Virus record (IMG/VR): IMGVR_UViG_3300008012_000037
Span: 1 to 52,862 of that record
DNA length: 52,862 bases
Source of the DNA: a virus
Direction: 5' to 3' (one strand)
The notes below the pieces were generated by a model that saw nothing but the letters and a program-made list of their open reading frames with translations, made no database searches and was not told the DNA's origin. Shown piece by piece: positions 1,194 to 52,027 of the stretch (position 1 is the first letter of the stretch; the number at the start of each line of letters is the position of its first letter). The position numbers and the translations under genes were made by a program.

Positions 1194-1199
1194 ATTATA
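1194..1199 (-). promoter_or_regulatory. TATAAT -10 box for the NUDIX gene
   Basis: On the minus strand TATAAT ends 6 nt before ATG 1187. The predicted transcription start coincides with the A of the start codon, so the message would be leaderless. The box sits at the very end of the gp15 gene. I see no strong -35. Confidence 0.5.
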
Positions 1200-22885: not shown

Positions 22886-23349
22886 TAACTGAAAAAATAA
22901 AAAATCACACTATTAAAGAAAGTATTGGAAATTTAAAATTTTTTATAATTAGAAATTTTGTTGAACTAAAAACCTACGACAAAATTTATGAATGTTTTAA
23001 TAACACATCTCACAGACATTGGTCAGAAGTAAAAGAAAACAACAAATTTGTGCTGAAGGAACAATTTTGGCACCTTTCAGAAATAAATTCCGATTTTGAA
23101 GCAAACAAATGGACAGGCTATTGGTTTTTCAAACAACGTGGCGACAGAAGAGCAATCCAATATAAAGTGTTATCCCCGGATGGCGAATCAAATGCCTATC
23201 ATTATCACGGAAATGTATTATTGCTCATATCCCCCAATCAACACAATATAAAAATGCAAGACGTGGAAATTTCTATGCCGGTGACACCTGTTTGTAAAAT
23301 TGTTTTTGAAACCAACGAATCAAGAGCCCTTGATCGATTGTTTGAGTAG
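22882..23349 (+). CDS. Protein of unknown function in the glycan cluster
   Basis: A 155-residue protein from ATG 22882 (MITEKIKNHTIKESIGNLKF), coupled by an ATGA overlap to the preceding glycosyltransferase. The C-terminal half is beta-rich with NAYHYHGNVLLLISPNQHNI and MPVTPVCKIVFETNESRAL. I do not recognise the family. The 3' end overlaps the convergent 23320-24060 gene by 30 nt. The longer frame from 22849 starts inside the previous gene and is not preferred. Confidence 0.6.
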   Translation: MITEKIKNHTIKESIGNLKFFIIRNFVELKTYDKIYECFNNTSHRHWSEVKENNKFVLKEQFWHLSEINSDFEANKWTGYWFFKQRGDRRAIQYKVLSPDGESNAYHYHGNVLLLISPNQHNIKMQDVEISMPVTPVCKIVFETNESRALDRLFE

Positions 23350-34430: not shown

Positions 34431-35894
34431 ATGAGCAGTTGCAAACTTGTGATCAAAGACGAGGTAAATGTAAAATTTGAAAATCTATCATTAGATCACA
34501 GGAAAAAACTACACAGCAAATTCAAATTTGAGATACCTTATGCGAGGCACTTACCAGCGGTAAAACTTGGAAGATGGGACGGAAAGATCAGTTTCTTTGG
34601 ATTGGGCGGCACCACCTATCTGGCATTGGTGGATCAAATTTTACCAATATTAGAAGACGCAGGTGTATACGTTGACCTGGAAGATCATCGCACTCCAAAT
34701 AATTTTGAATTCACACTGATAGACAAAAATTATCTTTCAAATATCACTTGGCCGGAATCACATCCTTGTGCAGGACAACCAATTGAGTTGAGAGACTACC
34801 AGGTAGAAATAATCAATGAGTTTATAAAAAGTCCTCAGTGCATACAAGAAATAGCCACCGGAGCGGGAAAAACAATAATCACAGCCACCCTTTGTAAATT
34901 AGTTGAAGACTACGGAAGAACACTGACCATTGTTCCTAACAAAAGCCTAGTGACTCAAACCGAAGACGATTTTTTGACTTGTAATCTCGATGTAGGTGTA
35001 TACTACGGTGATAGAAAAGAACTAGGAAGACAAAATACAATAGCAACCTGGCAATCATTGAATGTTTTAGAAAAAAAAAGCAAGGACGAACACACAGCAG
35101 ATTTTTTAGAAGCAATAAAAGGAATCAATACTATTATAGTCGACGAAGTGCATATGGCCAAGGCCGATGTACTTAAAAGAATGTTGACAGGACCATTTGC
35201 TCATTGTGGCATACGTTGGGGTTTGACAGGTACTGTGCCAAAAGCGGATTTTGAATTTTATGGTCTCAAATGTAGTATAGGTGATGTTGTCAATAAGATT
35301 GCGGCGAAGGAATTACAGGACAAAGGAGTTTTAGCCAACTGCAATGTAAATGTGCTACAGACACAAGACCACCCCGAGTTCAAAAACTATCAGGAGGAAC
35401 TAAAGTGGCTTACCACCGATAGTACAAGAATGGATTGGATTTCCAAAACAATTGATAGTATAGCGACTTCTGGAAACACATTGATTTTAGTGGATAGAAT
35501 ATCGGCAGGCGAAATACTAGAAAAAAAATTAAAAGGTTCGGTGTTTATATCAGGCTCAACCAAAAACCCAGAAAGGAAAGAACACTATGATGAAGTATCT
35601 ACTGCGAAAAATAAAATTATTATCGCCACATATGGAGTTGCCGCTGTTGGCATTAATATTCCTAGGATTTTTAATCTTGTTCTCATAGAGCCTGGCAAGT
35701 CATTCGTTAGAGTGATACAGAGCATAGGACGTGGTATCAGGAAGGCAGAAGACAAAGACAATGTACAGATATGGGACATTACCAGTTCCTGTAAATTTGC
35801 TAAAAGACACCTCGGGCAGAGGAAAAAGTTTTACAAAGAGGCCAATTATCCGTATAATATAGAAAAGATAGATTATGAAAATCCTTACAATTGA
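34431..35894 (+). CDS. uvsW: UvsW-like recombination helicase
   Basis: A 487-residue SF2 helicase. The N-terminal UvsW domain has RHLPAVKLGRWDGKISFFGL. Motif I is IATGAGKT (142-149), motif II DEVH (238-241), motif III GLTGTVP, and motif VI VIQSIGRGIRK near residue 430. T4 UvsW has 503 residues. It regresses forks, branch-migrates Holliday junctions and unwinds R-loops to switch from origin- to recombination-primed replication. AAGGA upstream gives a Shine-Dalgarno. Confidence 0.94.
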   Translation: MSSCKLVIKDEVNVKFENLSLDHRKKLHSKFKFEIPYARHLPAVKLGRWDGKISFFGLGGTTYLALVDQILPILEDAGVYVDLEDHRTPNNFEFTLIDKNYLSNITWPESHPCAGQPIELRDYQVEIINEFIKSPQCIQEIATGAGKTIITATLCKLVEDYGRTLTIVPNKSLVTQTEDDFLTCNLDVGVYYGDRKELGRQNTIATWQSLNVLEKKSKDEHTADFLEAIKGINTIIVDEVHMAKADVLKRMLTGPFAHCGIRWGLTGTVPKADFEFYGLKCSIGDVVNKIAAKELQDKGVLANCNVNVLQTQDHPEFKNYQEELKWLTTDSTRMDWISKTIDSIATSGNTLILVDRISAGEILEKKLKGSVFISGSTKNPERKEHYDEVSTAKNKIIIATYGVAAVGINIPRIFNLVLIEPGKSFVRVIQSIGRGIRKAEDKDNVQIWDITSSCKFAKRHLGQRKKFYKEANYPYNIEKIDYENPYN

Positions 35895-36378
35895 TAATAA
35901 AACATACACGTTGGAAAAGATTCCGGAATATGTGGATGACAGTTTGAGATTTGCTGTTCTTGACAACTCAAATCCTCAAGACCCAGATTATTATTTCATT
36001 CCTTTAATTTTTCTTGAATCTTTTAATGCACCAGCGGCAGTGTTACAAGTAGGAAAGTACAAAATTAAAATGCCTTTGGATTGGAAAATGATTATAGGAG
36101 ATGCCGAGCAAGGAGAATTACACGTCTTGCCAATAACAAGTTTAAATGATAGAGGTTTTGAGGCGTTTATTTTCAATCCACTTACAGGTGGAAGACCCGA
36201 TTTTGCTGGAGTGGACATAGTAGACATCTACCAGGAAGTAAAATGGTATTTTCCTAAAATAAAATCTGGTCAGATTCTAGCAGTGCCCTTGAGTGATCGT
36301 CCAAATCCGCCTTGTGCTTATTTTGTAAAGGACATATCAAGGCAGTCTGAACAACTCGATTACGGATCTGTATGGTAA
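35875..36378 (+). CDS. Conserved phage protein of unknown function
   Basis: A 167-residue, beta-rich protein (MKILTIDNKTYTLEKIPEYV). KMPLDWKMIIGDAEQGELHV, VLPITSLNDRGFEAFIFNPL and ILAVPLSDRPNPPCAYFVKD are well-ordered segments that I recall from a conserved protein next to replication genes in cyanophages, without known role. It overlaps uvsW by 20 nt and the gp62-like gene by 7 nt, so it belongs to the replication operon. Confidence 0.75.
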   Translation: MKILTIDNKTYTLEKIPEYVDDSLRFAVLDNSNPQDPDYYFIPLIFLESFNAPAAVLQVGKYKIKMPLDWKMIIGDAEQGELHVLPITSLNDRGFEAFIFNPLTGGRPDFAGVDIVDIYQEVKWYFPKIKSGQILAVPLSDRPNPPCAYFVKDISRQSEQLDYGSVW

Positions 36379-36830
36379 CACAAAAGAAAGATAATAGAAA
36401 ATTTTTTGAACTTCGGAACGGAATGAAAGCGATAGATTTTCGTAACAAAGATTACTATGATAGAATCGATGACAAAGAGCGAAGCCTTTACTCTCCGTAC
36501 ATGATAATGAGGTATGCTAGTTCAGTTACTGGAGATAAATTTTATCAGGAACACTATCTAGAAATGATAAACGAGTGCGTGAACAAACATCTTTTTACGC
36601 TGTCAGGCAAACACAAAAAACTTTGCTGGATACTTACTGCGATGTGTGGAGGATTAAAACAACAATTTCATCCATGGATAAAACCAATGAAAAAAGTACC
36701 AAACAAAAGTCTGAAACAACTGCAGGAAATATTTCCAGCAATGAAGGAAAAAGACCTCGAGACACTTGATGCTATAATCACAGACGCTGAACTAGAAGAA
36801 CTCTTGGAATCACATGGAATCAAATCTTAA
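36372..36830 (+). CDS. gp62-like clamp-loader small subunit (probable)
   Basis: A 152-residue protein. RSLYSPYMIMRYASSVTGDK, LEMINECVNKHLFTLSGKHK and QQFHPWIKPMKK match the style of T4-like gp62 (Y-x-PF-x-x-NR-x-x-S ... W), which with gp44 loads the gp45 sliding clamp. T4 gp62 has 187 residues, cyanophage versions ~130. gp44 and gp45 are not in this window. The name is withheld because the match is by pattern only. Confidence 0.6.
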   Translation: MVTQKKDNRKFFELRNGMKAIDFRNKDYYDRIDDKERSLYSPYMIMRYASSVTGDKFYQEHYLEMINECVNKHLFTLSGKHKKLCWILTAMCGGLKQQFHPWIKPMKKVPNKSLKQLQEIFPAMKEKDLETLDAIITDAELEELLESHGIKS

Positions 36831-37500
36831 TACCTGCACATACTGTAACAAAACATTCCAAAAGGCAAGGACACTGCAAGTGCATCTATGCGAACCAAAA
36901 AGAAGACATTTACAAAAACATGAAAAATGGGTGCAGAATGCCTTCATAGTTTTTCAAAGATTTTATCAAATACATCAAAATTCTTCAAAACCAAAAACAT
37001 ATGATGACTTCTGCAAAAGTGCCTATTACAACGCCTTTGTAAAATTTGGTAGATATATGATGCACATCAATCCGTTGTATCCAGACAAATATATCGATTA
37101 CATCATTACTTCAAAAATCAAACTGGATCACTGGGCAAGAGACGATCTGTACGAAGCATACATTATAGACGTTTTGAAATCAGAGCCGGTTGAATCTGCC
37201 CTGCAGAGAACAATAGCAACAATGATGGACTGGGCACAGGAACAAAACGCTCAATGGAGTGACTATTTCAGATTGGTCAACACCAATCGTGCTGTTATGC
37301 ATATACAACAAGGAAAGATATCTCCCTGGTTGGTGCTCGGTTGCAGAGCTGGTAAAAAAATGTTAAAATCATTTAACGATGAGCAATTACAAATGTGTGA
37401 TAGATTTATTGATCCAATATTTTGGAATAACAAATTCAAAAATTACAAATCAGATCTACTGTTTGTTGAAGAAACAGTAAAGGAGGCCAAAATTGAGTAG
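36814..37500 (+). CDS. C2H2-type zinc-finger protein, unknown
   Basis: A 228-residue protein. Residues 8-30 hold a zinc finger CTYCNKTFQKARTLQVHLC (C-x2-C-x12-H-x-C), followed by a basic patch EPKRRHLQKHEKW. The rest is helical (TIATMMDWAQEQNAQWSDYF, NTNRAVMHIQQGKISPWLVL). It may bind DNA. It starts 16 nt inside the gp62-like gene, and its end carries a strong AAAGGAGG for the next small gene. I recall related cyanophage proteins of unknown role. Confidence 0.75.
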   Translation: MESNLNTCTYCNKTFQKARTLQVHLCEPKRRHLQKHEKWVQNAFIVFQRFYQIHQNSSKPKTYDDFCKSAYYNAFVKFGRYMMHINPLYPDKYIDYIITSKIKLDHWARDDLYEAYIIDVLKSEPVESALQRTIATMMDWAQEQNAQWSDYFRLVNTNRAVMHIQQGKISPWLVLGCRAGKKMLKSFNDEQLQMCDRFIDPIFWNNKFKNYKSDLLFVEETVKEAKIE

Positions 37501-37708
37501 TCAAAAAAATGGATTAGAAATAATGTCAGGAGATAGTGTTTTGGTTATTGGCAAAGATGGAAATTTAAAAAAATTAGTTATGCCGGATATGAACAAGAAT
37601 ACTCCACATACTGCGGGCACAGAAAGGGTTTTGGAGATACTGAAAATTTTTGATCCAACGGCAAACTTAGACATATTAGAAAATGTTGACAAAGGAAGAT
37701 TGAATTAA
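37493..37708 (+). CDS. Small protein with TTG start, unknown
   Basis: A 71-residue protein starting at TTG 37493; AAAGGAGG (37479-37486) six nt upstream decides this start. An internal ATG (residue 11, MSGDSVLVIGKDGNLKKLVM) is an alternative. It may be an accessory to the DnaE-like mini-protein, whose ATG overlaps its stop by one base (TAATG). Confidence 0.65.
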   Translation: MSSQKNGLEIMSGDSVLVIGKDGNLKKLVMPDMNKNTPHTAGTERVLEILKIFDPTANLDILENVDKGRLN

Positions 37709-38316
37709 TGCCTGATGTAGATATAGATTTTTTTGACAGAGACAAATGTTTAGAACTATTCAAACATACTCCTGCGACAATTATTAAAAACCACACACAT
37801 GAAAAACACAAAACCGGTGTGTATTTTCACAAAATACCAAAAAATCCATTGTCTGGACACAGTAGTCTGAACTATAAAACAGCGGAGGACAGAGGCTATT
37901 TTAAGATAGATCTATTGAATGTGAATATCTATAAAAACATAAAGTCAGAACAAGAATTAGTTGAACTAATGATCCAGGAACCTAATTGGGATATGCTGAA
38001 AGACCCAAAAATTGTAGAACAACTTTTCCATTTGAATGGCCATTTTGAGATAGTATCTAAACTGGAGCCAAAGAACATAGAACAACTGGCCGCAGTGTTG
38101 GCCATAATCAGGCCAGCCAAACGACATCTTTTATACAAGGACTGGGTAGACATTCTCAAAGAAGTTTGGATTAAACCATCCGACGGCAGTTACTTTTTTA
38201 AAAAGTCTCACGCTGTTGCGTATGCCCAAGCGATTGTTGTGCAGATGAATCAGATGTCTAATGCTAAATATAGTTTTGATGCGACATCAGAAAATCAAAA
38301 AAAAACTTCCACGTAA
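37708..38316 (+). CDS. DnaE-like mini-polymerase (C-family palm/finger remnant)
   Basis: A 202-residue protein that begins with the C-family polymerase catalytic motif: MPDVDIDF (D3, D5), equivalent to D401/D403 of E. coli DnaE. The third catalytic Asp is in YFKIDLLNVNIY (D68), equivalent to D555 of KFDFLGLRTL. Downstream, EQLAAVLAIIRPAKRHLLY matches the finger segment ALVALFRPGP, and FFKKSHAVAYAQAIV matches FNKSHSAAYAL. PHP, thumb, tau-binding and OB domains are absent. All three catalytic Asp being kept argues against simple decay. It lies in the replication operon after a gp62-like gene. Activity is unproven; it may need a partner. Confidence 0.8.
   Translation: MPDVDIDFFDRDKCLELFKHTPATIIKNHTHEKHKTGVYFHKIPKNPLSGHSSLNYKTAEDRGYFKIDLLNVNIYKNIKSEQELVELMIQEPNWDMLKDPKIVEQLFHLNGHFEIVSKLEPKNIEQLAAVLAIIRPAKRHLLYKDWVDILKEVWIKPSDGSYFFKKSHAVAYAQAIVVQMNQMSNAKYSFDATSENQKKTST
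38265..38270 (+). promoter_or_regulatory. TAAATA box inside the mini-DnaE gene
   Basis: CTAAATA ends 9 nt before ATG 38279, predicting a 3-nt leader for a small overlapping gene. Confidence 0.5.
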
Positions 38317-38425
38317 ACCTAAAAAGAAACAAGTATTTCGAGCCGAGTACTCGTCCTACCATAAAGATAGTCCCTTGACCAGATACTTTGAAAGGAATTG
38401 TGGAATTAACAGTACAATTAAGTAG
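38279..38425 (+). CDS. Small basic protein (48 residues)
   Basis: A 48-residue frame reading MRHQKIKKKLPRKPKKKQVF and then RAEYSSYHKDSPLTRYFERN-CG. It overlaps the mini-DnaE 3' end by 38 nt in another frame and the convergent gene at 38418 by 8 nt. It fills the only gap in this operon and has a TAAATA box at the usual distance. The very basic N-terminus suggests nucleic-acid binding (inference). Not recognised. Confidence 0.55.
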   Translation: MRHQKIKKKLPRKPKKKQVFRAEYSSYHKDSPLTRYFERNCGINSTIK

Positions 38426-38792
38426 GACGTCTCATTAACTGAATTGTTCTACGCTTTATTCTTTTCTTTGCAATTTCATCTAATCTAACCACAGGACCGT
38501 GCTTTATCACGATGTCTTTTGTGGCCAGTGTAACCAAAGTGTGCCTGAAATACACAAAGTCTTTCTTTAAGAATATGTTGATGGGTATTTTTCTATTGGA
38601 TTCCCACCACCAAGTTTCGCCCATCTTCAAAAATGTTGCTTTGTCTTGCGGCATCATTATACGACCGTAGTCGTAAAAACTTGTGACTTGATTGTCTTGA
38701 TTCTGCACTATGCCCACAAATTCTAAATCGCCCTTTTGTATAAGCGACAGGAATGGGAATTTCTTGCCCAGTTTATCAAAAATTTCGTTCAT
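38418..38792 (-). CDS. Conserved phage protein of unknown function
   Basis: A 124-residue protein from ATG 38792 (MNEIFDKLGKKFPFLSLIQK); the frame extends 13 codons further to 38831 but that would overlap the divergent gene's promoter and start. DLEFVGIVQNQDNQVTSFYD and GETWWWESNRKIPINIFLKK look like a small beta domain. The C-terminus is very basic (AKKRIKRRTIQLMRRP). I recall similar small proteins in cyanophages near replication genes. No known function. Confidence 0.7.
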   Translation of the reverse strand: MNEIFDKLGKKFPFLSLIQKGDLEFVGIVQNQDNQVTSFYDYGRIMMPQDKATFLKMGETWWWESNRKIPINIFLKKDFVYFRHTLVTLATKDIVIKHGPVVRLDEIAKKRIKRRTIQLMRRPT

Positions 38793-38812
38793 CAGTAATC
38801 CAATAAATACTG

Positions 38813-38819
38813 TTAAATA
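38813..38819 (+). promoter_or_regulatory. TTAAATA box for the 38826 structural gene
   Basis: Ends 7 nt before ATG 38826 (1-nt leader). A second box, AATAAATA at 38802-38809, lies just upstream. This tandem arrangement marks a late gene inside an early/middle replication region. Confidence 0.6.
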
Positions 38820-38825
38820 TGTATT

Positions 38826-39611
38826 ATGCAAACAGTAACAAGGTATTTAATATCAAATGGTATAATCGTTTACCAAAACGGTTATCATGGAAGGAACTCA
38901 AAAGTGTACGATAGGCGCCTAAGATTATATAGGGGAGTAAGAAATCCAATAACTTTTACTTTCAAAAACGAAGATCAAAAGAGGCAAAATGTTGTTGGCA
39001 AAACATATCAGTTCAACATAATAGATACAGAATCAAAAAAAGCAGTTTTACAACGTAATTTAACCATTCTAGACGATGGTTCCACAATAAGCACCAAAGG
39101 AAACGCCCAGATCGAAATCACAGACGGTGACCTGTTGGATCTTGAAAACAAATTTTATGAGTACAGCATCAACGAGATCAAAACAGACGGTAGCACCCTA
39201 GTCACTTACGCAGACACAAGTTACGTGAGTTCAGGCACAATAGAATTGCTGGATGGGGCATATCCCCAATTTTTACCCAGTACCGAGATAACTTCTTTTA
39301 CCGGTACCACAGGACCTTTAGCAAAGACTTCATCAGCGATCAATGCCTATCCAGGAAAGAACAATAATTTGGCTCTGCATACTGCGGCGATCTATACCAC
39401 AGGTTTTGCGGGCAGAGTAAAAATACAAGGCACAATGGTTTCCACTAGTCCGGTTGACGCAGACTATTTTGACATAGCAAATGTTGATATCAGTGCTTCG
39501 GATTCGGTGGTATATCAAAATTTCAATGGTGTATATCAAAACGTAAGATTCAGTTACGGAAACTCTTCTGGTAATACCGGAACACTTGACAAAATACTCT
39601 ATAGACAGTAA
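38826..39611 (+). CDS. Virion/baseplate-type structural protein
   Basis: A 261-residue beta-rich protein. The N-terminal half resembles baseplate upper (BppU-like) domains: RNPITFTFKNEDQKRQNVVG, YQFNIIDTESKKAVLQRNLT and EITDGDLLDLENKFYEYSI. The C-terminal half is a jelly-roll-like segment AAIYTTGFAGRVKIQGTMVS followed by NFNGVYQNVRFSYGNSSGNT. I recall proteins of this type as virion components in T4-like marine phages. It has no enzymatic motif. Its late-type promoter agrees with a structural role despite replication neighbours. Confidence 0.72.
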   Translation: MQTVTRYLISNGIIVYQNGYHGRNSKVYDRRLRLYRGVRNPITFTFKNEDQKRQNVVGKTYQFNIIDTESKKAVLQRNLTILDDGSTISTKGNAQIEITDGDLLDLENKFYEYSINEIKTDGSTLVTYADTSYVSSGTIELLDGAYPQFLPSTEITSFTGTTGPLAKTSSAINAYPGKNNNLALHTAAIYTTGFAGRVKIQGTMVSTSPVDADYFDIANVDISASDSVVYQNFNGVYQNVRFSYGNSSGNTGTLDKILYRQ

Positions 39612-39621
39612 AATATAAGAT

Positions 39622-40635
39622 ATGAATCTAATTCAGTCGACTATTCTGACTTCTTTGCCTGCCGGCAAGAAAAAGACACCAAGTGGATGGACGTCATTCA
39701 ATGCTCCTTGTTGTGTGTACAACGGAGAGTCCCCTGACAAAAGAAAAAGAGGTGGAATAATGACCACGGCCGACGGCACTCTAAGTTATCACTGTTTTAA
39801 CTGCGGATACAAGGCCAGTTATATCATTGGTAGGAAACTGACAGCCAGGATGAGACAACTAATGAGTTGGTTGGGCATATCAGATGATGTTATCAAAAAA
39901 TTAGCCATAGAAGCGATGCGACATGAAGAATCAGATACCAAATATGAAAAAAAGAAATTTGTTGATTTCAAAAAAAAATCTTTGCCAAAAAATTCTCACA
40001 AACTTGATTTTTGGTTGGAAAAATATGTAGCACAAGATCTAACAGAACCACAATACAAAAAAATAGATGGTTTATTGAATTATCTGAAATCCAGAGGTAT
40101 TCAACCAGACTGGTATGATTTCTTGTATTCTCCAGACTCAAATTTTGATATTAACAAAAGAATTTTAATTCCGTTTTATTGGAAAGGAGATATTGTAGGA
40201 TACACAGGCAGGCTTTTTGAAAATTCAGACAAAATAAAATACTACACAGATGTACAGCCAGGTTATGTGTTCAATCTAGATGCACAAGACTGGTCACGTA
40301 AATTTGTAATTGTCACAGAAGGACCTTTTGATGCTTTAACCATTTCGGGTGTCAGTATATTGGGTTCTGAGGTAAATGATACACAAAAGGACCTTATAAA
40401 CAGTTTGAACAGGCAGGTAATTGTTGTACCAGATAGAGATGCTCCGGGAGAGAAACTCATAGACCAGGCACTAGAGTTTGGTTGGAGTGTTGCTTTTCCA
40501 GAATGGCAAAAAGGTGTTGATGACGTGGCCGATGCTGTGTTAAAATACGGAAGACTGTTTGTTATACAAAGTATTTTAAAAACAACAGAGTCCAATAAAC
40601 TAAAAATTGATCTAAAAAGAAAGATGTATGGCTGA
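39622..40635 (+). CDS. gp61: gp61-like DNA primase
   Basis: A 337-residue primase. The N-terminal zinc-binding domain has APCCVYNGESPDKRKRGG and LSYHCFNCGYKAS (C30/C31, H57/C58, C61). The TOPRIM motif is FVIVTEGPFDALTISGV, and VVPDRDAPGEKLIDQALEFG supplies the metal-binding Asp pair. T4 gp61 has 342 residues. It makes RNA primers for the lagging strand with gp41, whose gene overlaps by 8 nt. Confidence 0.94.
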   Translation: MNLIQSTILTSLPAGKKKTPSGWTSFNAPCCVYNGESPDKRKRGGIMTTADGTLSYHCFNCGYKASYIIGRKLTARMRQLMSWLGISDDVIKKLAIEAMRHEESDTKYEKKKFVDFKKKSLPKNSHKLDFWLEKYVAQDLTEPQYKKIDGLLNYLKSRGIQPDWYDFLYSPDSNFDINKRILIPFYWKGDIVGYTGRLFENSDKIKYYTDVQPGYVFNLDAQDWSRKFVIVTEGPFDALTISGVSILGSEVNDTQKDLINSLNRQVIVVPDRDAPGEKLIDQALEFGWSVAFPEWQKGVDDVADAVLKYGRLFVIQSILKTTESNKLKIDLKRKMYG

Positions 40636-42070
40636 TTATAGTTTCGATGTACAAAAATTATATTTAGAAATGTTTTTGGCTGACGCCGAATCATTTGCTA
40701 GAGCACAGAATATTTTTGAGCCAACGAGTTTTGACAGAAAACTGCAACCAATCGCAAATTTTGTAAAAGAATATTCCGAGGAATACAAGGTAATGCCTGA
40801 TGTAGAACAAGTGAATGCCAAACACGAGATCAAGTTGAAATCAGCAAAAGATCTAGATCCTTCGCATTTCAGTTGGTTGCTAGACGAGTTTGAAACATTT
40901 GCGAGACACAAAGCAATGGAAAAGGCAATATTAGAATCGGCAGATTTGCTGGAACGTGGCGATTACAATCCTGTAGAAGACAAAATTAAACAAGCAGTTA
41001 GCATAAGTCTAACCAAGGACTTGGGTACTGATTACTTTGAGGATCCGAGAGCAAGATTAGAGGCACTTAAAAATTCAAACGGTCAGGTAAGCACAGGATG
41101 GCCCAATGTCGACAAAAAACTTTACGGTGGTTTCAACAGAGGTGAACTGAACATATTTGCAGGTGGTTCTGGAGCAGGAAAAAGTTTGTTTTTACAAAAC
41201 CTGGCAGTGAACTGGGCATCAGCGGGATTGAACTGTGTGTATGTGTCTTTTGAGTTAAGTGAGGCGTTGTGTGCCATGAGATTAGATTCAATGATGGCAA
41301 ACATTCCTACAAAGCAAGTCATGAAAGACATAGACAATGTTGAAATGAAAGTGAAAATGATGGGCAAACAGTCAGGAGGTATACAAATCAAATATATCCC
41401 TTCGGGCAGTAATGTAAACGACATAAAGGCATACATCAAAGAACTACAATTGAAGCAAAAGAAAAAGATAGACTGCATACTGATCGATTACTTGGATTTA
41501 ATGATGCCAAAAAGTAAAAAAATATCACCTGCTGATTTGTTCATAAAAGACAAATATGTTTCGGAAGAACTGAGAAACTTCGCAACTGAATCACAAATGA
41601 TAATGGCAACTGCATCACAGTTGAACAGGGCATCCGTTGAGGAGATTGAGTTTGATCACTCTCACATCTCTGGTGGTTTGTCAAAAGTACAGACAGCGGA
41701 CAACGTGATTGGTATATTCACATCGAGAGCGATGAAAGAACGTGGCAGATATCAGATACAGTTTATGAAAACTAGATCGAGTTCGGGAGTTGGCCAAAAG
41801 GTAGATTTGGAATTTGACGTGGACACACTGAGAATAAGAGACCTAGCAGAAGACCCAGAATATCAACAGTTCAAGAAACAGACAAGCACGATATACGATA
41901 ATCTAAAAACAAAAAGCAAAGTATCACCATCTGAACAAAAAACTGATGCGAGAGACAGTAAAGAAATTGATCCGAGAAAAGGCGACGATATCGGCAAAGT
42001 CAAAGCCACAGTGGAGGGTGGCAAACTGAGACAACTGCTCAACGAGTTACACTCAGATGAAGAACAGTAA
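40628..42070 (+). CDS. gp41: gp41-like replicative DNA helicase
   Basis: A 480-residue DnaB-family hexameric helicase. The N-terminal helical domain is followed by the RecA-like domain with Walker A IFAGGSGAGKSLF (179-186 core), Walker B IDCILIDYLDLM, and MIMATASQLNRAS plus SHISGGLSKVQTADNV in the DNA-loop region. T4 gp41 has 475 residues. It unwinds DNA ahead of the leading-strand polymerase and recruits gp61. The acidic C-terminus ends LHSDEEQ. Confidence 0.95.
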   Translation: MADYSFDVQKLYLEMFLADAESFARAQNIFEPTSFDRKLQPIANFVKEYSEEYKVMPDVEQVNAKHEIKLKSAKDLDPSHFSWLLDEFETFARHKAMEKAILESADLLERGDYNPVEDKIKQAVSISLTKDLGTDYFEDPRARLEALKNSNGQVSTGWPNVDKKLYGGFNRGELNIFAGGSGAGKSLFLQNLAVNWASAGLNCVYVSFELSEALCAMRLDSMMANIPTKQVMKDIDNVEMKVKMMGKQSGGIQIKYIPSGSNVNDIKAYIKELQLKQKKKIDCILIDYLDLMMPKSKKISPADLFIKDKYVSEELRNFATESQMIMATASQLNRASVEEIEFDHSHISGGLSKVQTADNVIGIFTSRAMKERGRYQIQFMKTRSSSGVGQKVDLEFDVDTLRIRDLAEDPEYQQFKKQTSTIYDNLKTKSKVSPSEQKTDARDSKEIDPRKGDDIGKVKATVEGGKLRQLLNELHSDEEQ

Positions 42071-44735: not shown

Positions 44736-45680
44736 ATGAAAATAACAAAGAAAAAAACAGGATTGGTTGTTGCGATAATCGTAGCAATTGGAATCTTATG
44801 GGCAGTATTAAAACCTGCTCCGGCCGAGGCATCCGAAGTGGATGTTGACATTTATGGTTCTTTGAACTACATGATCAGCAACAACGAAGATGACAGTGGC
44901 GTTTCTACTTCAAAAGCGGAAAACAACGGATCGAGCATTGGTGCTAATTTCAGTAGCAGTATTTCAGAAGGTGTTAACGGATTCGCAACTATTGAAGTAG
45001 ATGTAGATGCGGACGACTCGGGATCTAGTCCCTTTGATTCAAAACTGGCATTCGCTGGTGTTGACATGGGCGACATGGGTATTGTGTCTGTTGGAAGACA
45101 GAACTCGGTATTCAAAGGTGCTGTGACATCTAAAACAGATGTGTTTCCAGAATACGGAAATAATGCATCTCAAAAGTTGTTCAGCAGAGACTCACACACA
45201 GCAGTTTATTCTAACAACTTTGGTGCTGTCAAAATTGACAACATGATCAAAGTAGATGGAACTACTGGAAAATCTGGTGTTGACGTTTTTGAAACAGCCG
45301 CATCTTTAGATTTGAGTGACACCCTAAATTTAGGTATTGCCTACTCGGACGACAAAGTAAATCAAATACAGTACACAGGTGCTGGAATTACTTTTGACAT
45401 ATCTGAAGCAACTACTTTGGGTTACGCACACACAATCAAGGACACGGAAACCACCAATCTTACCACATCTGCCAATGAGATAGTAGCAAGTCATATAATT
45501 GACAACACTACATACTCGGTCGGATACGGCAAGATTGAGGACGGTGCCGCCTACACAACAGTTGGAGCCGAAAAGAAAATTGGCGAAAACTTTAGCGTAT
45601 ATGGCGCTTTCGAAATGACCGACCCAGCGTCTGGCGTTGACACGCAGGATGCCGCGGCAGGAATCAAGTTTACATTCTAA
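44736..45680 (+). CDS. Gram-negative outer-membrane porin-like protein
   Basis: A 314-residue protein. Residues 1-35 are a signal peptide: KKKTG, the hydrophobic VVAIIVAIGILWAVL, then PAPAEAS as probable cleavage site. The mature part starts VDVDIYGSLNYMI, has MGIVSVGRQNSVFKGAV (porin-type loop before the constriction), alternating beta-strands, and ends FSVYGAFEM...GIKFTF with a terminal Phe, the beta-barrel assembly signal. This is the layout of general porins (about 300 residues, 16 strands). It would be inserted in the host outer membrane, changing permeability or receptor display. Lambdoid phage PA-2 (Lc porin) is the known precedent for a phage-encoded porin. Confidence 0.85.
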   Translation: MKITKKKTGLVVAIIVAIGILWAVLKPAPAEASEVDVDIYGSLNYMISNNEDDSGVSTSKAENNGSSIGANFSSSISEGVNGFATIEVDVDADDSGSSPFDSKLAFAGVDMGDMGIVSVGRQNSVFKGAVTSKTDVFPEYGNNASQKLFSRDSHTAVYSNNFGAVKIDNMIKVDGTTGKSGVDVFETAASLDLSDTLNLGIAYSDDKVNQIQYTGAGITFDISEATTLGYAHTIKDTETTNLTTSANEIVASHIIDNTTYSVGYGKIEDGAAYTTVGAEKKIGENFSVYGAFEMTDPASGVDTQDAAAGIKFTF

Positions 45681-45760: not shown

Positions 45761-47452
45761 ATGAAAGATAAAGAACTGAACGACATAACCAGGCTGTACG
45801 ATAGATTCATCAGGCAATGCCCAGGCACAGAAGAATACACCCAGAGGCTCGCTGAAGAGACTCGTATCATCCTACAACTACGTTTCGTAGATTACTTCAT
45901 ACAAATATGTGACATCATAAAACTCACCAGAGACATACCTCACATGACCAGAGGTTCCGCTGGTAGTTCGTTGGTCTGCTACTTGCTTGGCATAACTGAT
46001 GTGGATCCTGTGGAGTGGGGCATACCCATTGCACGATTTTTGAATCCAAACAGAGACGATCTACCAGATGTGGATATTGATTTTCCCCACCACAGTCAGG
46101 AAGAAGTCATGAAAAGGATATTCAAAAAGTGGCCGGGAAGTTCTGCACGAATTTCTAACTACGTGCTCTTTAAAGAAAAAAGTGCTAAACGAGAAGCGGC
46201 AAAAAGATTGGGTGCGAAAGGTAAACTCCCTCGCAGGTTCACATACGAGTCAGTTGGTGTTGATCCCACTGAAGCAAAAAGGATTGAACAAAAACTGATG
46301 GGCAAGAAGAGATGCATATCAAAACACTGCGGAGGAATACTGATGTTTCAAAGACAACTACCAAAAAGCCTGTTCACGGCGGAAAACCAAATACTACTAG
46401 ACAAGAACGAAGTGGAGGACTTGGAACACCTCAAGGTGGACATTTTGGCAAATAGAGGACTATCTCAACTGCTGGAAGTAGACCCCGTGACCAAATTAAC
46501 CGAGTATCCTGAAGAAGATAAAGAGACAGCGGAACTATTATGTAGGGGCGACGTGCTGGGAGTCACACAGGCAGAATCCCCGGCAATGAGGAGACTGTTT
46601 CGTGCCATACAACCAAAGTCAATGAAAGATTGTGTGTTCGCAACAGCATTGATAAGACCAGTGGCTGTGTCAGGAAGGAAAAAGGCAACAATGTTTCACG
46701 ACTGGTCAAAGGAAAGAATGGAAGACACTATAGTATATGAAGACGATGCCATTGACAGAATATCCGAGGTGCTGGGTATTGACAAATACGAGGCAGACAA
46801 ATACAGGAGAGCATTCGCAAAAAAAAATGAAGAAAAAATCTTAGAGTTTACAACAAGACTTGGCAATCACCCAAGAAAAAATTCAATAATAGAAATGTTA
46901 CAAGGACTGTCTGGGTTTGGTTTGTGCAGAGCTCACGCCATAAATCTAGGAAGATTGATCTGGGCTCTAGCCTATCAAAAAGCACATAACAAAAAAAAGT
47001 TCTGGGAGGCGTGTCTTAAACATTGTCATGGATCATATAGACGTTGGGTTTACAGAATTGAAGCAAAAAGAGTAGGAATAGATGTAGTCACACCATCAAA
47101 CTCGGATAAATGGGACACACCGGATTTTCAATATAGGAAATATGGTTGGTGGAGTTCAAAAAACTTTATGCCAGGTATGTATGTAAGAGAACTCTACATG
47201 GACAAAGTTGAATTTGCAGGACTGATAGCAAACGGCAGAGTGTTTAGAGGAGACAAAGGCAAGTATGTAACATTTTTGACACTTGGTGTTGGTAATGGAA
47301 AATATATAGATGTCACAATAAAGAAACCATTTTCCTATCACGATCATGACGTGGTCTGGGGACAAGGAATAATAAGACAATCAAACAATTCCGAATATCT
47401 TGATGTATATGATGCAAAAGGATTTACACTTGAAAAATATCAAAAATTATAA
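45761..47452 (+). CDS. DnaE-like (C-family) DNA polymerase without PHP domain
   Basis: A 563-residue protein, half the length of DnaE (1160). The palm begins with HMTRGSAGSSLVCYLLGITD (61-80; E. coli [20 protein letters not shown]) and reaches the catalytic motif LPDVDIDF (101-108, D103/D105). The third Asp is in LKVDILANRG (D227). The finger region has FATALIRPVAVSG and the F-x-K-x-H-A motif appears as GFGLCRAHAINLGRLIWAL. The C-terminus (EFAGLIANGRVFRGDKGKYV) is OB-like. PHP, and thus proofreading, is absent. No PolB (gp43) lies in the window. Possibly a translesion or specialised polymerase. Leader structured as described. Confidence 0.9.
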   Translation: MKDKELNDITRLYDRFIRQCPGTEEYTQRLAEETRIILQLRFVDYFIQICDIIKLTRDIPHMTRGSAGSSLVCYLLGITDVDPVEWGIPIARFLNPNRDDLPDVDIDFPHHSQEEVMKRIFKKWPGSSARISNYVLFKEKSAKREAAKRLGAKGKLPRRFTYESVGVDPTEAKRIEQKLMGKKRCISKHCGGILMFQRQLPKSLFTAENQILLDKNEVEDLEHLKVDILANRGLSQLLEVDPVTKLTEYPEEDKETAELLCRGDVLGVTQAESPAMRRLFRAIQPKSMKDCVFATALIRPVAVSGRKKATMFHDWSKERMEDTIVYEDDAIDRISEVLGIDKYEADKYRRAFAKKNEEKILEFTTRLGNHPRKNSIIEMLQGLSGFGLCRAHAINLGRLIWALAYQKAHNKKKFWEACLKHCHGSYRRWVYRIEAKRVGIDVVTPSNSDKWDTPDFQYRKYGWWSSKNFMPGMYVRELYMDKVEFAGLIANGRVFRGDKGKYVTFLTLGVGNGKYIDVTIKKPFSYHDHDVVWGQGIIRQSNNSEYLDVYDAKGFTLEKYQKL

Positions 47453-47469
47453 TATAATTGAAAGTATCT

Positions 47470-47784
47470 ATGCCCTACGTTGTAAATGATAAATGCATAT
47501 TGTGTAAACACACAGATTGTGTAGAAGTATGCCCGGTAGACTGCTTCTACGAAGGTGAAAATATGTTGGTTATAAATCCAGACGAATGCATAGACTGTGG
47601 CGTGTGTGAACCGGAGTGTCCGGTGGATGCTATTGAACCCCTGGACAGTGGTGAATTAGTTGAATTCAACAGGACCTGGTCAAACAAATGGCCAAATATC
47701 ACACAAAAAAAGGATGCATTGCCGGAAGCAGAAAAATATGCCAACGAAACAAATAAACTAGAAAAATATTTTAAAAACAAATGA
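47470..47784 (+). CDS. fdxA: 7Fe (3Fe-4S/4Fe-4S) ferredoxin FdxA
   Basis: A 104-residue ferredoxin from ATG 47470; a TTG reading (47458) would add four residues. Cys layout C9-x2-C12-x4-C17-x3-C21-P and C40-x2-C43-x2-C46-x3-C50-P, with C25, matches Azotobacter ferredoxin I, including [29 protein letters not shown] and [16 protein letters not shown] near the C-terminus. It carries low-potential electrons in the cytoplasm. It is preceded by overlapping TATAAT boxes (47448-47458) at the end of the DnaE gene. It overlaps DUF2061 by 4 nt. Likely acquired from a proteobacterial host. Confidence 0.95.
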
Positions 47785-48014: not shown

Positions 48015-48876
48015 TAAAATAAAAAATTATAAATTGAACAGGGCAAGTGTTCCCATCAACAGCCACGAGACAAAAGATTTTATAGAAAAAAATCTTTCGG
48101 TGTTTCACACAGGTAGCAAACATATTACACAGATAGAAGTGGAGGAATCATTTAGAAAATTTCTAACAAAGAACACAAACAACAGCATAAATCTAGACAA
48201 CTTTAAATATGCCGAGTATTGTTACGGAACAAGTCAGGCTATAACCGAATTCATAGCAAGAAATAATAAAAGAAGGTTGCGTGTCAGCAAAATAGATTTC
48301 GTTCTTTCAAAGATAGTTGGCAATGCCTATAAAATAAAAATAACATCATTGGAAGAAGACAAAATAAGAAAAAACGACTGCATCGTGATTAGTTTTCCTT
48401 TTAGTGGTAACGGATCTTACTACAACAATTATGAAGAGATCTTGAATGAAGCAACTAAATTACAAGTTCCGGTTCTCATAGACGGTGCCTATTTTGGGAT
48501 CGGTAACGGAATAGAATACCCAATCAATCATGATTGCGTTACTGATTTTACAACAAGCCTGAGCAAGTCACATGGAGTTGCTGACTATAGGATAGGCATA
48601 AGATTCAGGAAAGAATTTGTAGACGATCACATTTCTGCTTCTAAAGATGCGGATGTTTTCAACAGATTTGCGGCCTGTGTGGGAGTCTGTCTGATGTCAA
48701 ACTTTACACACGATCACTTACTTAAAAAATACGTTTCACAACAAAAAAAGATATGTGATGATTTAAAAATAGATATGACAAAAACTTTAACTTTTGGACT
48801 GGGGGATAACAAGGCGTGGTCCGATTATGCACGGGGCGACAATGCGAGAATATGTATCAGCGAAAATTTTGTATGA
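48007..48876 (+). CDS. Short PLP-dependent aminotransferase-like enzyme
   Basis: A 289-residue protein from ATG 48007 ([20 protein letters not shown]). The PLP-pyridine Asp is in VPVLIDGAYFGIGNG and the Schiff-base Lys in DFTTSLSKSHGVADYRIGIR, the layout of fold-type I aminotransferases (D-x-A/x-Y ... S-x-S-K). DCIVISFPFSGNGSYYNN before it fits the PLP-ring-stacking region. The usual length is ~370-400, so it is trimmed. The frame start at 47962 is rejected because ATG 48007 is coupled to the DUF2061 stop. Substrate unknown; the next gene is a 2OG oxygenase. Confidence 0.75.
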   Translation: MTDKIKNYKLNRASVPINSHETKDFIEKNLSVFHTGSKHITQIEVEESFRKFLTKNTNNSINLDNFKYAEYCYGTSQAITEFIARNNKRRLRVSKIDFVLSKIVGNAYKIKITSLEEDKIRKNDCIVISFPFSGNGSYYNNYEEILNEATKLQVPVLIDGAYFGIGNGIEYPINHDCVTDFTTSLSKSHGVADYRIGIRFRKEFVDDHISASKDADVFNRFAACVGVCLMSNFTHDHLLKKYVSQQKKICDDLKIDMTKTLTFGLGDNKAWSDYARGDNARICISENFV

Positions 48877-49447
48877 CGAATTAGAGAAAGTCGACTTCAT
48901 AGAATACGGAAATATAGATCTTCCCTGGAAACACTACGTCACCGAATGTGAAAAGTCGAGATCACTTAATCCAGAATACAATATTAGTCCTTTTGACGGT
49001 GAAGTATGGCAACCCGGAGCAAAGAAAATGTTCAGCATCGTCGATACCTGGAAAGAATGGGGTTACACAGAACACAACACAAGGATATGGAAGACCACCA
49101 ATCAGAAACCAAAAATAAATTTTGATTGGGAAAAAGATATCAGCAAATACCTACCTTTCTCTGACTGCATAGTGACTCCAACCATGCAGGAACCAGGACA
49201 TACCTTGCCATGGCATCAGGACAACTTTGTGCTTCTCAAAGAAAAATATCCATCTGGCAACATTTTAAGATTTTTGATATTCATGGAAGACTCATCGACA
49301 GGCCATGCCTTGCAGATCAAGGATACCTGGAAAACAAGTTGGCGAGCAGGAGATGTTATAGTATGGTATCCCAACGCAGGGCATCTATCTATAAACATAG
49401 GAAACAAAAACAAATGGACCTGTAACGTTACAGGTGTGCTGAAATGA
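48842..49447 (+). CDS. Fe(II)/2-oxoglutarate oxygenase-like protein
   Basis: A 201-residue protein from ATG 48842 (MREYVSAKILYDELEKVDFI); the upstream in-frame start at 48794 lies well inside the PLP gene. The cupin core shows HTLPWHQDNFVLLKEK (His-x-Asp of the iron site) and SWRAGDVIVWYPNAGHLSIN (distal His and a following basic residue for 2OG), as in Asp/Asn beta-hydroxylase-like and PHYH-like families. It overlaps the PLP gene by 35 nt. Probably hydroxylates an amino acid or a protein side chain made or released by the PLP step (inference). Confidence 0.75.
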   Translation: MREYVSAKILYDELEKVDFIEYGNIDLPWKHYVTECEKSRSLNPEYNISPFDGEVWQPGAKKMFSIVDTWKEWGYTEHNTRIWKTTNQKPKINFDWEKDISKYLPFSDCIVTPTMQEPGHTLPWHQDNFVLLKEKYPSGNILRFLIFMEDSSTGHALQIKDTWKTSWRAGDVIVWYPNAGHLSINIGNKNKWTCNVTGVLK

Positions 49448-49668
49448 AATTGGCTAAATTAGAGTCTCTACAGAAACTCAAAGACCAAGGACCTCGTAAA
49501 AAAGACAGAGCATATTGGAAAATTTCCAAAAGAGATATAAACCAATCCAACTATAATATATGGCTCTGTTGGATGCAGATGGTGATTGATTATTTGGTAA
49601 AAAGAGCGGAGCGAAGCGCCAAAATAAAAGACAGCGTAAGCGTAAATTTAGAAAACAGCGAAGCGTAA
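49444..49668 (+). CDS. Small basic protein of unknown function
   Basis: A 74-residue protein (MKLAKLESLQKLKDQGPRKK), coupled by an ATGA overlap. The core YNIWLCWMQMVIDYLVKRAE is amphipathic. Its last 20 codons run into the GCGAAGC/GCGTAAGC repeats, encoding RAERSAKIKDSVSVNLENSEA, so the C-terminus may be shaped by the repeats and the ancestral protein may have ended earlier. Confidence 0.55.
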   Translation: MKLAKLESLQKLKDQGPRKKDRAYWKISKRDINQSNYNIWLCWMQMVIDYLVKRAERSAKIKDSVSVNLENSEA

Positions 49669-49684
49669 AACAGCGTAAGGCGGC
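49606..49684 (+). repeat. Array of GCGAAGC / GCGTAAGC mini-hairpin repeats
   Basis: GCGAAGC at 49611-49617 and 49658-49664, GCGTAAGC at 49634-49641, and a decayed GCGTAAGGC at 49673-49681, spaced 15-24 nt. d(GCGAAGC) is known to fold into an unusually stable DNA mini-hairpin (GAA loop), and GTAA is a GNRA-type loop on the same GC stem. The array lies at the change from AT-rich to GC-richer DNA. Confidence 0.65.
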
Positions 49685-49694
49685 TTCTGACCCC

Positions 49695-49702
49695 TATAAG
49701 TA
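49695..49702 (+). promoter_or_regulatory. Variant late box TATAAGTA
   Basis: Ends 7 nt before ATG 49709 (1-nt leader). The same G substitution is seen before usg. It shows the GC-rich cassette is wired into the phage's own late programme. Confidence 0.55.
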
Positions 49703-49708
49703 AAACGT

Positions 49709-50302
49709 ATGTACACCTCTACAGGAGAAACCTGCATCACGGAATGCTGGCCCGAGCACGGACACGTGATCAAACAGTTCAGGCCTCGTAAACCAAAATT
49801 TGGAAGAGCCATAGATCCCTTGCGTGAAAGCCTGGACCTTTGTTTCTATCGCGAACTGACCTGCCTGCAGAGATTGGCCGGCAACACCCATTTCCCCCAA
49901 CTGTTGGACTACAACGAGGACGAACTGTGGATCAAGATGACCTGGGTGGGCAGACCTTTCCTGCATTTCGCTGACGATAACCGAGATCCCTATCTCGCAC
50001 AGGTTGATCCCATAGTTGACGCCTTGGCCGAGAGCGACATACGCCTGGCCTATAGGTGGACACCCAACGACACACGCCTGGGCTACTGCCTCAGCATGAT
50101 GATGGTTCGATCACATCAGTTGTGCATCATAGATTTTGAACGTGCATGGCCAGTGGGCTGTGGGCGAGAACCCGAGTTCAATGGACTGTTCCGGGACAGT
50201 TTTGAAACACACAGCAACACAGAATTTCGTCGCACACTCGCAGACACGATAATTACTACTATCAAGCAACCGCCGCCAAAGGGAAACTATGAAAAAGAGT
50301 GA
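49709..50302 (+). CDS. Kinase-like-fold protein
   Basis: A 197-residue protein of protein-kinase-like/aminoglycoside-phosphotransferase style. VIKQFR (Lys for ATP) follows the first strands, ESLDLCFYRELTCLQRLAG has the helix-C Glu, LWIKMTWVGRPF is the hinge-like strand, and LSMMMVRSHQLCIIDFERAW contains the DFx metal motif. The usual HxDxxxxN catalytic loop is not clear, so it may be a pseudokinase. Codon use is GC-richer than in the genes at 22-49 kb. It heads a four-gene coupled cassette with methyltransferase and radical SAM protein. Confidence 0.7.
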   Translation: MYTSTGETCITECWPEHGHVIKQFRPRKPKFGRAIDPLRESLDLCFYRELTCLQRLAGNTHFPQLLDYNEDELWIKMTWVGRPFLHFADDNRDPYLAQVDPIVDALAESDIRLAYRWTPNDTRLGYCLSMMMVRSHQLCIIDFERAWPVGCGREPEFNGLFRDSFETHSNTEFRRTLADTIITTIKQPPPKGNYEKE

Positions 50303-50852
50303 AGCAGAAAATTTACACGCCTGGGATCAATATCAGCACAGCAAGATAGGTAATAACGTGGAAGAACGGATTCGTCTGTTTGATTTAGAATCGTATACTG
50401 GCAAGGACAAATCTCTGTTGGACACAGGAGCCAACAACGGCAAGTTCACTGCCCAACTGGCACACCTGTTCAGGCACTGCACAGCAGTGGAACCGTATGC
50501 AGAGCCGGTCGCACAACCCGACAACGTTACCTGGATAAAGAAAGGATTCCGGGATTTCTGTGAGTCCAATCGGGACACATTTGATGTGGTGTATTCTTTT
50601 GCCTGCACTATCCAGATCGAAGACATTGATCTGTTGGACACAGATGCCATTGCTGAACACTATCATCGTTTGGTCAGTGAAAACGGTATGCTGATATACG
50701 AAACACAGAAGTTGACCAAACCCAGACACCGAGCACACGCCGAAAGAATGATAGCATCATTCCAAAACAGTTTTGGCAAGGAGATCAGGATCGGTCGAGG
50801 TAGAAGCAGAGACACCAGGACCGTGCATTATTTTCAGAAGAAGACAGCATAA
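50289..50852 (+). CDS. Class I SAM-dependent methyltransferase
   Basis: A 187-residue methyltransferase. SAM motif I is KSLLDTGANNGKFTAQLAHL, motif II TAVEPYAEPVAQ, motif IV TFDVVYSFACTIQIED, followed by LVSENGMLIYETQK. It is of the small Methyltransf_11/23 type; substrate unreadable. It overlaps the kinase-like gene by 14 nt. With the radical SAM protein downstream it suggests modification of one substrate in several steps. Confidence 0.85.
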   Translation: MKKSEAENLHAWDQYQHSKIGNNVEERIRLFDLESYTGKDKSLLDTGANNGKFTAQLAHLFRHCTAVEPYAEPVAQPDNVTWIKKGFRDFCESNRDTFDVVYSFACTIQIEDIDLLDTDAIAEHYHRLVSENGMLIYETQKLTKPRHRAHAERMIASFQNSFGKEIRIGRGRSRDTRTVHYFQKKTA

Positions 50853-50865
50853 TGGGAGAAACACA

Positions 50866-51054
50866 ATGGGCATACATCACGACTACAAGAGCACCAGGGG
50901 TGCTAAAAAAATGGAGAAACAAAAACAACGTGAACAGCGTAGGCTCAGGAAAAAGAAACCAAACACCGACAACCGGAAAGTTGCAAAAACAATCCCCGAA
51001 GACGTGGTGCTGACCTTGGACATGATCACCGATCCCAATTTCAAAAATGATTAA
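50866..51054 (+). CDS. Small basic protein between methyltransferase and radical SAM genes
   Basis: A 62-residue protein from ATG 50866 (MGIHHDYKSTRGAKKMEKQK), chosen because GGGAG (50854-50858) lies 7 nt upstream; the longer frame from 50773 is a read-through of the methyltransferase gene. The middle is a Lys/Arg/Gln-rich helix (REQRRLRKKKPNT) and the end TIPEDVVLTLDMITDPNFKN is more hydrophobic. It overlaps the radical SAM gene by 8 nt. Could be the peptide substrate of the cassette or an RNA-binding protein (both inference). Confidence 0.6.
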   Translation: MGIHHDYKSTRGAKKMEKQKQREQRRLRKKKPNTDNRKVAKTIPEDVVLTLDMITDPNFKND

Positions 51055-52027
51055 CCCAAGACTGTTTGACCACTACGGCATCAATATCAATAAAAATCTC
51101 AAAATCAAATCACGATGTGCCAGACCGTTTGACACTGTGTTGATCGATAAACAGGGATCCTGTTATGCCTGTGAATGCACTGCCTGGTTGCCACAGAGCA
51201 TCGGAAACCTGCAGATATCTCCACTCAGAGACATCATAGGATCTGCCACACATCGCCACCTACAGGAATCTATCACGGACGGCTCTTATCGTTACTGCAA
51301 CAATCAACAGTGTGCCTACATCAAGGCCGGTCGTTTCTATGAAGCCTCGGAACAGCAGATACGCTATCTGAGATTGGCCATAGACAACTCCTGTAATCTC
51401 AGATGCCCCAGTTGTCGAACACAAAAAATTTTCCACAGCCGTGGTCCAGAATTGAAACGAATGAAACTGTTGGCCGATCGTGTGTTGGAATATCTGTCCG
51501 AGTCCGATCACGGCCTTCACGTACACATAGGCAGTGATGGAGATCCTTTTGCCAGTTTGGTCTATCGATACTTCATGCGAAATGTGCCAAAACAAATGAA
51601 GCACACATACTCGTTGATGACCAATGCACTGCTACTTAAGAAACAGTATGCCCACAACGAAACAGTGTTCGACAATCTCACCGAACTACAGATCAGCATC
51701 GACGGTGCCACCAAACAGACCTATGAGAAGTTGAGGTTGGGAGGTAATTGGGAACAGTTAAAAGAAAATTTAAAATTTGTCAGCGAGATAATGACCTTTG
51801 ACGTTTGCCTGCACATGGTGGTGCAGAATGACAACTGGGCGGAAATACCAATGATGTTGGATCTTGCGGATCAATATAATTTTGATAGGGTCTACTTCAA
51901 CAAGATCGAAGACTGGAACACCGGTATAGATGTGTCCACACATCGTTTTGATCGTTCAGTCACATTCCGAAAGATGATCGAATCTGTTCAAGATCATCCC
52001 AAATTCAAAAGTTCTATCGCAGTCTAG
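51047..52027 (+). CDS. Radical SAM enzyme with an N-terminal SPASM-like Cys cluster
   Basis: A 326-residue protein. The radical SAM 4Fe-4S motif is DNSCNLRCPSC (C116-x3-C120-x2-C123), followed by HVHIGSDGDPFASL-like strand and LQISIDGATKQTYEKLRLGG, as in MoaA/PqqE-type enzymes. Unusually a SPASM-like set lies before the barrel: C24 (CARPFDTV), C39-x2-C42-x-C44 (GSCYACECTAW), GNLQISPLRDII and C84-x4-C89. SPASM domains normally follow the barrel. SPASM enzymes often modify peptides. It overlaps the small basic gene by 8 nt and converges with the SGNH gene (14 nt). Confidence 0.88.
   Translation: MINPRLFDHYGININKNLKIKSRCARPFDTVLIDKQGSCYACECTAWLPQSIGNLQISPLRDIIGSATHRHLQESITDGSYRYCNNQQCAYIKAGRFYEASEQQIRYLRLAIDNSCNLRCPSCRTQKIFHSRGPELKRMKLLADRVLEYLSESDHGLHVHIGSDGDPFASLVYRYFMRNVPKQMKHTYSLMTNALLLKKQYAHNETVFDNLTELQISIDGATKQTYEKLRLGGNWEQLKENLKFVSEIMTFDVCLHMVVQNDNWAEIPMMLDLADQYNFDRVYFNKIEDWNTGIDVSTHRFDRSVTFRKMIESVQDHPKFKSSIAV

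Follow-up and report, generated by a model that had tools for sequence, protein, structure and literature searches.

Can a protein of 202 residues that opens directly on the catalytic motif of the bacterial replicase be a DNA polymerase? The question is raised by an open reading frame at positions 37708 to 38316 (+) of a 52,862-nucleotide stretch of viral DNA, which was analyzed over its whole length and is called the window here. A first-pass annotation, made from the letters alone, had read this frame as a DnaE-type polymerase core that retains the catalytic aspartates, and had offered three identities for it: a new minimal polymerase, a primase-like enzyme, or a regulatory decoy. We refer to the protein as the C-half, and to the separately encoded GS-motif half of the palm found in its relatives as the N-half.

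The gene, its conservation, and its neighborhood

The reading frame is present at these coordinates. Its ATG overlaps the stop codon of the preceding frame (TAATG), and AAAGGAAG lies immediately 5', which together make a start at MPDVDIDF credible and argue against truncation in the present contig. The preceding frame (37493 to 37708, +), described in the first-pass annotation as a small protein started at TTG, is indeed open over 71 codons, but its counterparts in relatives share its position and no sequence similarity and cannot be aligned. We had considered this small protein as a supplier of the thumb that the C-half lacks and dropped it because of the unalignable counterparts.

The C-half matches phrog_11778, annotated "DNA polymerase" (E value of 1.4e-64), and has homologues in 63 phage records at 33 to 52% identity over about 90% of its length; at least several hundred viral contigs encode it. 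The homologues are equal in size and begin at the same motif, written PDVDIDF, TDIDIDF, MDIDIDI, or FDVDIDV. In the window, the protein opens with PDVDIDF at residues 2 to 8 (37711 to 37731, +), where D3 and D5 correspond to D401 and D403 of Escherichia coli DnaE. The third catalytic aspartate, D68 (DnaE D555), stands with K66 in GYFKIDLLN (residues 63 to 71; 37894 to 37920, +), and both residues are invariant in 108 of 108 homologues. Equally invariant (108/108) is an HxxG element (H34 and G37; 37807 to 37818, +), the counterpart of the HAGG palm strand of DnaE, which aligns with HCGG in a second DnaE-like protein of the window. Two fingers motifs complete the set: IRPAKRH (residues 134 to 140; 38107 to 38127, +), with I134, R135, P136, and K138 invariant and aligned to a DnaE segment ending in FRPG at 641, and KKSHAVAYA (residues 165 to 173; 38200 to 38226, +), with H168 and Y172 invariant and aligned to KSHSAAYA at DnaE 752 to 767. 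Counted residue by residue, 107 or 108 of the 108 homologues retain D3, D5, D7, K66, and D68, as well as H34, G37, R135, P136, K138, H168, and Y172, and the same conservation holds in a more diverse set of 65 sequences. The three aspartates singled out in the first-pass annotation are therefore conserved as proposed.

Within the window's own clade, the median dN/dS of the C-half is 0.057. It is a functional gene under constraint, far beyond what chance would give. No cellular DnaE is nearly as short as the C-half, a fact that could be explained if it were a truncation, a pseudogene, or an assembly artifact of a longer DnaE. Such an origin is hardly conceivable, as conservation already refutes it: the same length and the same start recur in the 63 phage records and in at least hundreds of contigs, the gene order around the frame is intact, and the dN/dS ratio is about 0.06.

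That gene order runs from uvsW through small genes, a zinc-finger-like gene, and a further small gene to the C-half, and on through a reverse-strand gene and a structural gene to the gp61 primase and gp41 helicase. With small variations, it is common to RaK2, 121Q, XaC1, PA5oct, Vibrio phage 2.275.O, SCTP-2, Phosso, and Atu_ph07. In the window, a UvsW-like helicase (34431 to 35894, +; phrog_16, E value of 6.5e-77) forms the upstream end of the conserved locus, a position it also holds in RaK2 and 121Q. Directly 3' of the C-half lies a small gene on the opposite strand (38418 to 38831, -; phrog_11637, E value of 1.2e-29), found in the same place in RaK2, Atu_ph07, Phosso, 121Q, and XaC1, and farther along are a gp61-like DNA primase (39622 to 40635, +; phrog_47, E value of 4e-41) and a gp41/DnaB-like replicative helicase (40628 to 42070, +; phrog_19, E value of 2.7e-74; PF03796). 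In the T4-like replication operon described earlier, the UvsW, primase, and helicase genes are confirmed. The conserved upstream neighbor (36814 to 37500, +) is plausibly the C2H2-zinc-finger-like protein that had been proposed (phrog_11058, E value of 3e-59), but its zinc-finger matches in Pfam fall below the cutoffs. Support is lacking for the "gp62-like" label given to 36372 to 36830, as that protein matches only phrog_11758, a family of unknown function, and has no Pfam clamp-loader match.

The window also encodes a tail sheath, a tail tube, a terminase, a gp32-like single-stranded DNA-binding protein (SSB), and UvsX, and it is a fragment of a T4-like myovirus. The tail sheath protein is very large, at 1,140 residues (5835 to 9257, +; phrog_10581), and a second sheath-like match lies at 1195 to 2583 (-).

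Predicted fold and the separate half of the palm

Direct sequence comparison links the C-half to DnaE only faintly. A phmmer search of the PDB with the single protein returned a chance match to Era and nothing else, and a profile search gave DnaE matches that were weak (E value of 0.08) but collinear, falling at DnaE residues 402 to 421, 596 to 641, and 752 to 767. Because these matches are weak, assignment to the family rests on the PHROG match, on structure, and on the N-half. An AlphaFold model built from the homologue alignment (pLDDT 89.6, pTM 0.76) was compared with known structures using VIA-align, and the best 15 matches were all DnaE or PolC (Z scores of 6.1 to 9.7), including the DnaE proteins of Thermus, Mycobacterium tuberculosis, and E. 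coli; the first unrelated chain in the ranking had a Z score of 3.4. E. coli DnaE (2hnh) superimposed over 185 residues spanning chain positions 400 to 781 (Z score of 8.8, rmsd of 3.7), and in PolC the matched region was 971 to 1361. Foldseek put the same C-family entries first, with E values of only 1.5e-3. As modeled, the C-half is the metal-binding half of a C-family palm together with fragments of the fingers. The first-pass identification of a DnaE-type protein, which depended on a C-family palm fold and on aspartates conserved among homologues, held on both counts, with phrog_11778 as additional support.

Like bacterial DnaE and PolC, the C-half has the palm metal-site fold and parts of the fingers; unlike them, it has no GS-motif palm half, no HhH region, and no C-terminal domain, and it comprises 202 residues where they have more than 900, covering only DnaE 400 to 781 with large gaps. 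Its length and scans with Pfam and NCBIfam revealed no PHP, OB, or tau-binding domain, and the protein also lacks a thumb and the greater part of the fingers. The earlier list of absent domains (PHP, thumb, OB, and tau) was correct as far as it went but overlooked the missing half of the palm. DnaE requires this further palm segment, whose GS motif holds the incoming nucleotide.

A PF07733 search of RaK2, Atu_ph07, and Phosso showed that the GS-motif half has its own gene there, for a protein of 172 to 177 residues that carries GRGS and ends in EFL followed by K, N, or E. A profile of the N-half, built without sequences of the second DnaE-like protein, matches E. coli DnaE from 317 to 393 and stops there. 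GRGS is present in 80 of 80 further N-halves, nearly all of which terminate at or a few residues from EFL followed by K or R. With the N-half ending at DnaE 393 and the C-half beginning at 400/401, the two proteins define one split point, just before the PDxDxD strand. A split intein was rejected as an explanation for the break, because the C-halves start at the break and the N-halves end there or only a few residues away, with no room left for intein sequence. The N-half gene is located near the clamp loader gene gp44 and, in relatives, tens to hundreds of kilobases from the C-half (about 34 kb in RaK2 and about 180 kb in Atu_ph07). In one record of 117,666 bases (G045), the N-half is matched twice at the same score, once on each strand (22490 to 23005, +, and 94662 to 95177, -), which reflects either an inverted duplication or a palindrome created in assembly.

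Among records of 200 kb or longer, 19 contain at least one half and 18 of them contain both; as these records were chosen for having one half, the count tests the presence of the other half only. The exception among the 19 is a 359-kb record (G037) with an N-half, in which the C-half was not detected, and a 195-kb record (G031) has a C-half, with the N-half not detected. Divergent partners or incomplete genomes are possible explanations for both. A family B polymerase (PolB) was encoded in all 15 large records tested.

The protein under study might still add nucleotides alone, as a minimal polymerase or primase-like enzyme that needs no partner, since it retains all three metal-binding aspartates and some fingers residues, which are invariant. 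We consider this highly improbable, as the protein lacks the strand-loop half of the palm bearing the GS motif, which the same genomes encode separately, and as the halves co-occur in nearly all large records that contain either one. The C-half by itself is half of an active site and should be inactive, and the complete minimal polymerase or primase-like enzyme of the first-pass annotation therefore gives way to one part of a divided enzyme.

For the present phage, the N-half was not found in the 52.9-kb window or in 14 sister contigs of 37 to 91 kb, all of them fragments, and none of 155 further N-half loci listed was linked to a C-half. The 52.9-kb fragment likewise contains no family B polymerase. 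The nearest large relative is a 328-kb marine record (G040) whose C-half is 60% identical and which encodes both an N-half and PolB in addition, so that an N-half is expected outside the window in the present phage. Presumably, it lies beyond the limits of the 53-kb fragment.

The proposed two-piece enzyme

A split minimal DNA polymerase III alpha, divided into two subdomains and encoded beside a family B polymerase, was described in group 2.2 jumbo phages by Iyer et al. 2021 (PMC7824862), who predicted that the two halves assemble into an active enzyme. Parts of it had been noted earlier, as a truncated alpha subunit of 172 residues in phage CBB (PMC5259590) and as the Pol III alpha protein gp316 of Atu_ph07 (PMC6102473); by length and position, both are the N-half. 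Our search of the literature found no biochemical test of the split enzyme. The C-half resembles the published C-terminal subunit (phrog_11778; RaK2 ORF124, Atu_ph07 gp074, and Phosso gp437) in its length, its start at the catalytic motif, its residues, and its gene neighborhood, at 33 to 52% identity. It is a stand-alone Mg-binding and template-binding subdomain that begins at PDxDxD, with the three catalytic aspartates and no other Pol III alpha domains. It is thus a new marine example of an already described split enzyme, not a new stand-alone mini-polymerase. Full-length phage DnaE proteins with a PHP domain, found in jumbo group 3.2 and in actinobacteriophages, are distantly similar to the C-half (phrog_405), but each is a single long replicase, whereas the C-half would be half of a minimal enzyme beside PolB.

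With homology, fold, metal ligands, split point, and co-occurrence with the N-half and PolB in large relatives in hand, we regard the C-half as the probable C-terminal subunit of a minimal C-family nucleotidyltransferase made of two pieces, a proposal in which assembly, catalysis, and role are inferred. The C-half would supply the catalytic metal site (D3, D5, and D68, with D7 and K66) and a reduced fingers or template-binding part, and the N-half, of about 175 residues, would supply the GRGS loop. In DnaE, this loop binds the triphosphate of the incoming nucleotide. The two proteins are predicted to assemble into a single palm with a chain break between DnaE 393 and 400. Such an enzyme would have no PHP, thumb, OB, HhH/clamp-binding, or tau parts, and from these absences it would be expected to be distributive and dependent on the phage replisome (PolB, the clamp, the gp32-like SSB, and UvsW/UvsX). 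Alongside the family B replicase, it may carry out a limited amount of gap filling, primer extension, or repair.

One alternative is that the C-half has kept its fold as a noncatalytic scaffold, a decoy, or a regulator of the replisome. The loss of the thumb, PHP, and most of the fingers fits such a role, as do the full PolB in these genomes and a literature that reports no activity. However, a purely structural role would not call for D3, D5, D7, D68, and K66 to stay unchanged in 108 homologues as little as 33% identical, and the gene is under strong purifying selection (dN/dS of about 0.06). These data make a scaffold, or the regulatory decoy of the first-pass annotation, unlikely.

An active complex of the two halves would be the smallest polymerase of the C family, working without thumb and PHP, and would have persisted over a very long period in phages already equipped with a family B replicase. 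Activity would also show the minimum that the palm of Pol III needs and would bear on proposals that the ancestral bacterial replicase looked like such phage versions.

The unsplit DnaE-like protein of the marine clade

Compared with the published split enzyme, the window's uncultured marine clade differs in having an unsplit DnaE-like gene a few kilobases downstream. In the window, this gene (45761 to 47452, +) lies 7.4 kb downstream of the C-half and encodes a protein of 563 residues without a PHP domain. The protein matches PF07733 (E value of 2.2e-42) and PF17657 (E value of 3.1e-17), and it matches E. coli and Thermus DnaE at 1e-26 to 1e-31. A GS motif, the metal site, KVD, and fingers elements can be read from its sequence (RGSAGSS, PDVDIDF, LKVDIL, and GLCRAHA), along with a YRRAFAKK segment that resembles RRAMGKK of DnaE; judged by eye, the C-terminal 90 residues may resemble the DnaE OB region. 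The AlphaFold prediction was poor (pLDDT 45), and the alignment was shallow. Its closest relative outside the clade, at 39%, is in LR756508.1, a 484-kb record with neither split half. A search of the large split-enzyme genomes, run without a positive control, did not detect the 563-residue protein. The presence of such a C-family protein beside the C-half is apparently new and specific to this clade.

The two genes lie 4 to 7.5 kb apart in the same orientation at no fewer than 47 marine loci, and the C-half is present in 10 of 10 larger contigs picked for carrying the 563-residue protein. Together with the finding of no N-half among the clade's matches listed, this arrangement could mean that in the marine clade the C-half works with the unsplit protein instead of an N-half, as an accessory or regulatory subunit. 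We judge that role distinctly improbable: a complete PDVDIDF/KVD metal site within the 563-residue protein leaves it no need of the C-half, several clade members have a C-half without the 563-residue gene nearby, and the contigs are fragments, so the absence of an N-half proves little. A related idea is that the clade has been remodeled, with the N-half lost and the C-half and the 563-residue protein forming a new two-subunit C-family polymerase beside PolB. Such a remodeling is quite unlikely, and if true it would give a C-family polymerase of new composition. With the C-half read as one subunit of the split enzyme, the marine clade offers a natural experiment in which split and unsplit C-family cores stand side by side.

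Several other genes in this part of the window deserve mention. Directly after the 563-residue gene is a 2[4Fe-4S]-type ferredoxin with DUF3470 (47458 to 47784, +; phrog_8732), and in other marine jumbo phages, ferredoxins that are 55 to 76% identical are located behind the clamp-loader gene near the N-half. The window also encodes a porin-like protein (44736 to 45680, +; PF00267, E value of 8.9e-9), and genes for a 2OG-Fe(II) oxygenase-like protein, a methyltransferase, and a radical SAM/SPASM protein stand in a row at 48794 to 52027 (+), possibly as a modification cassette.
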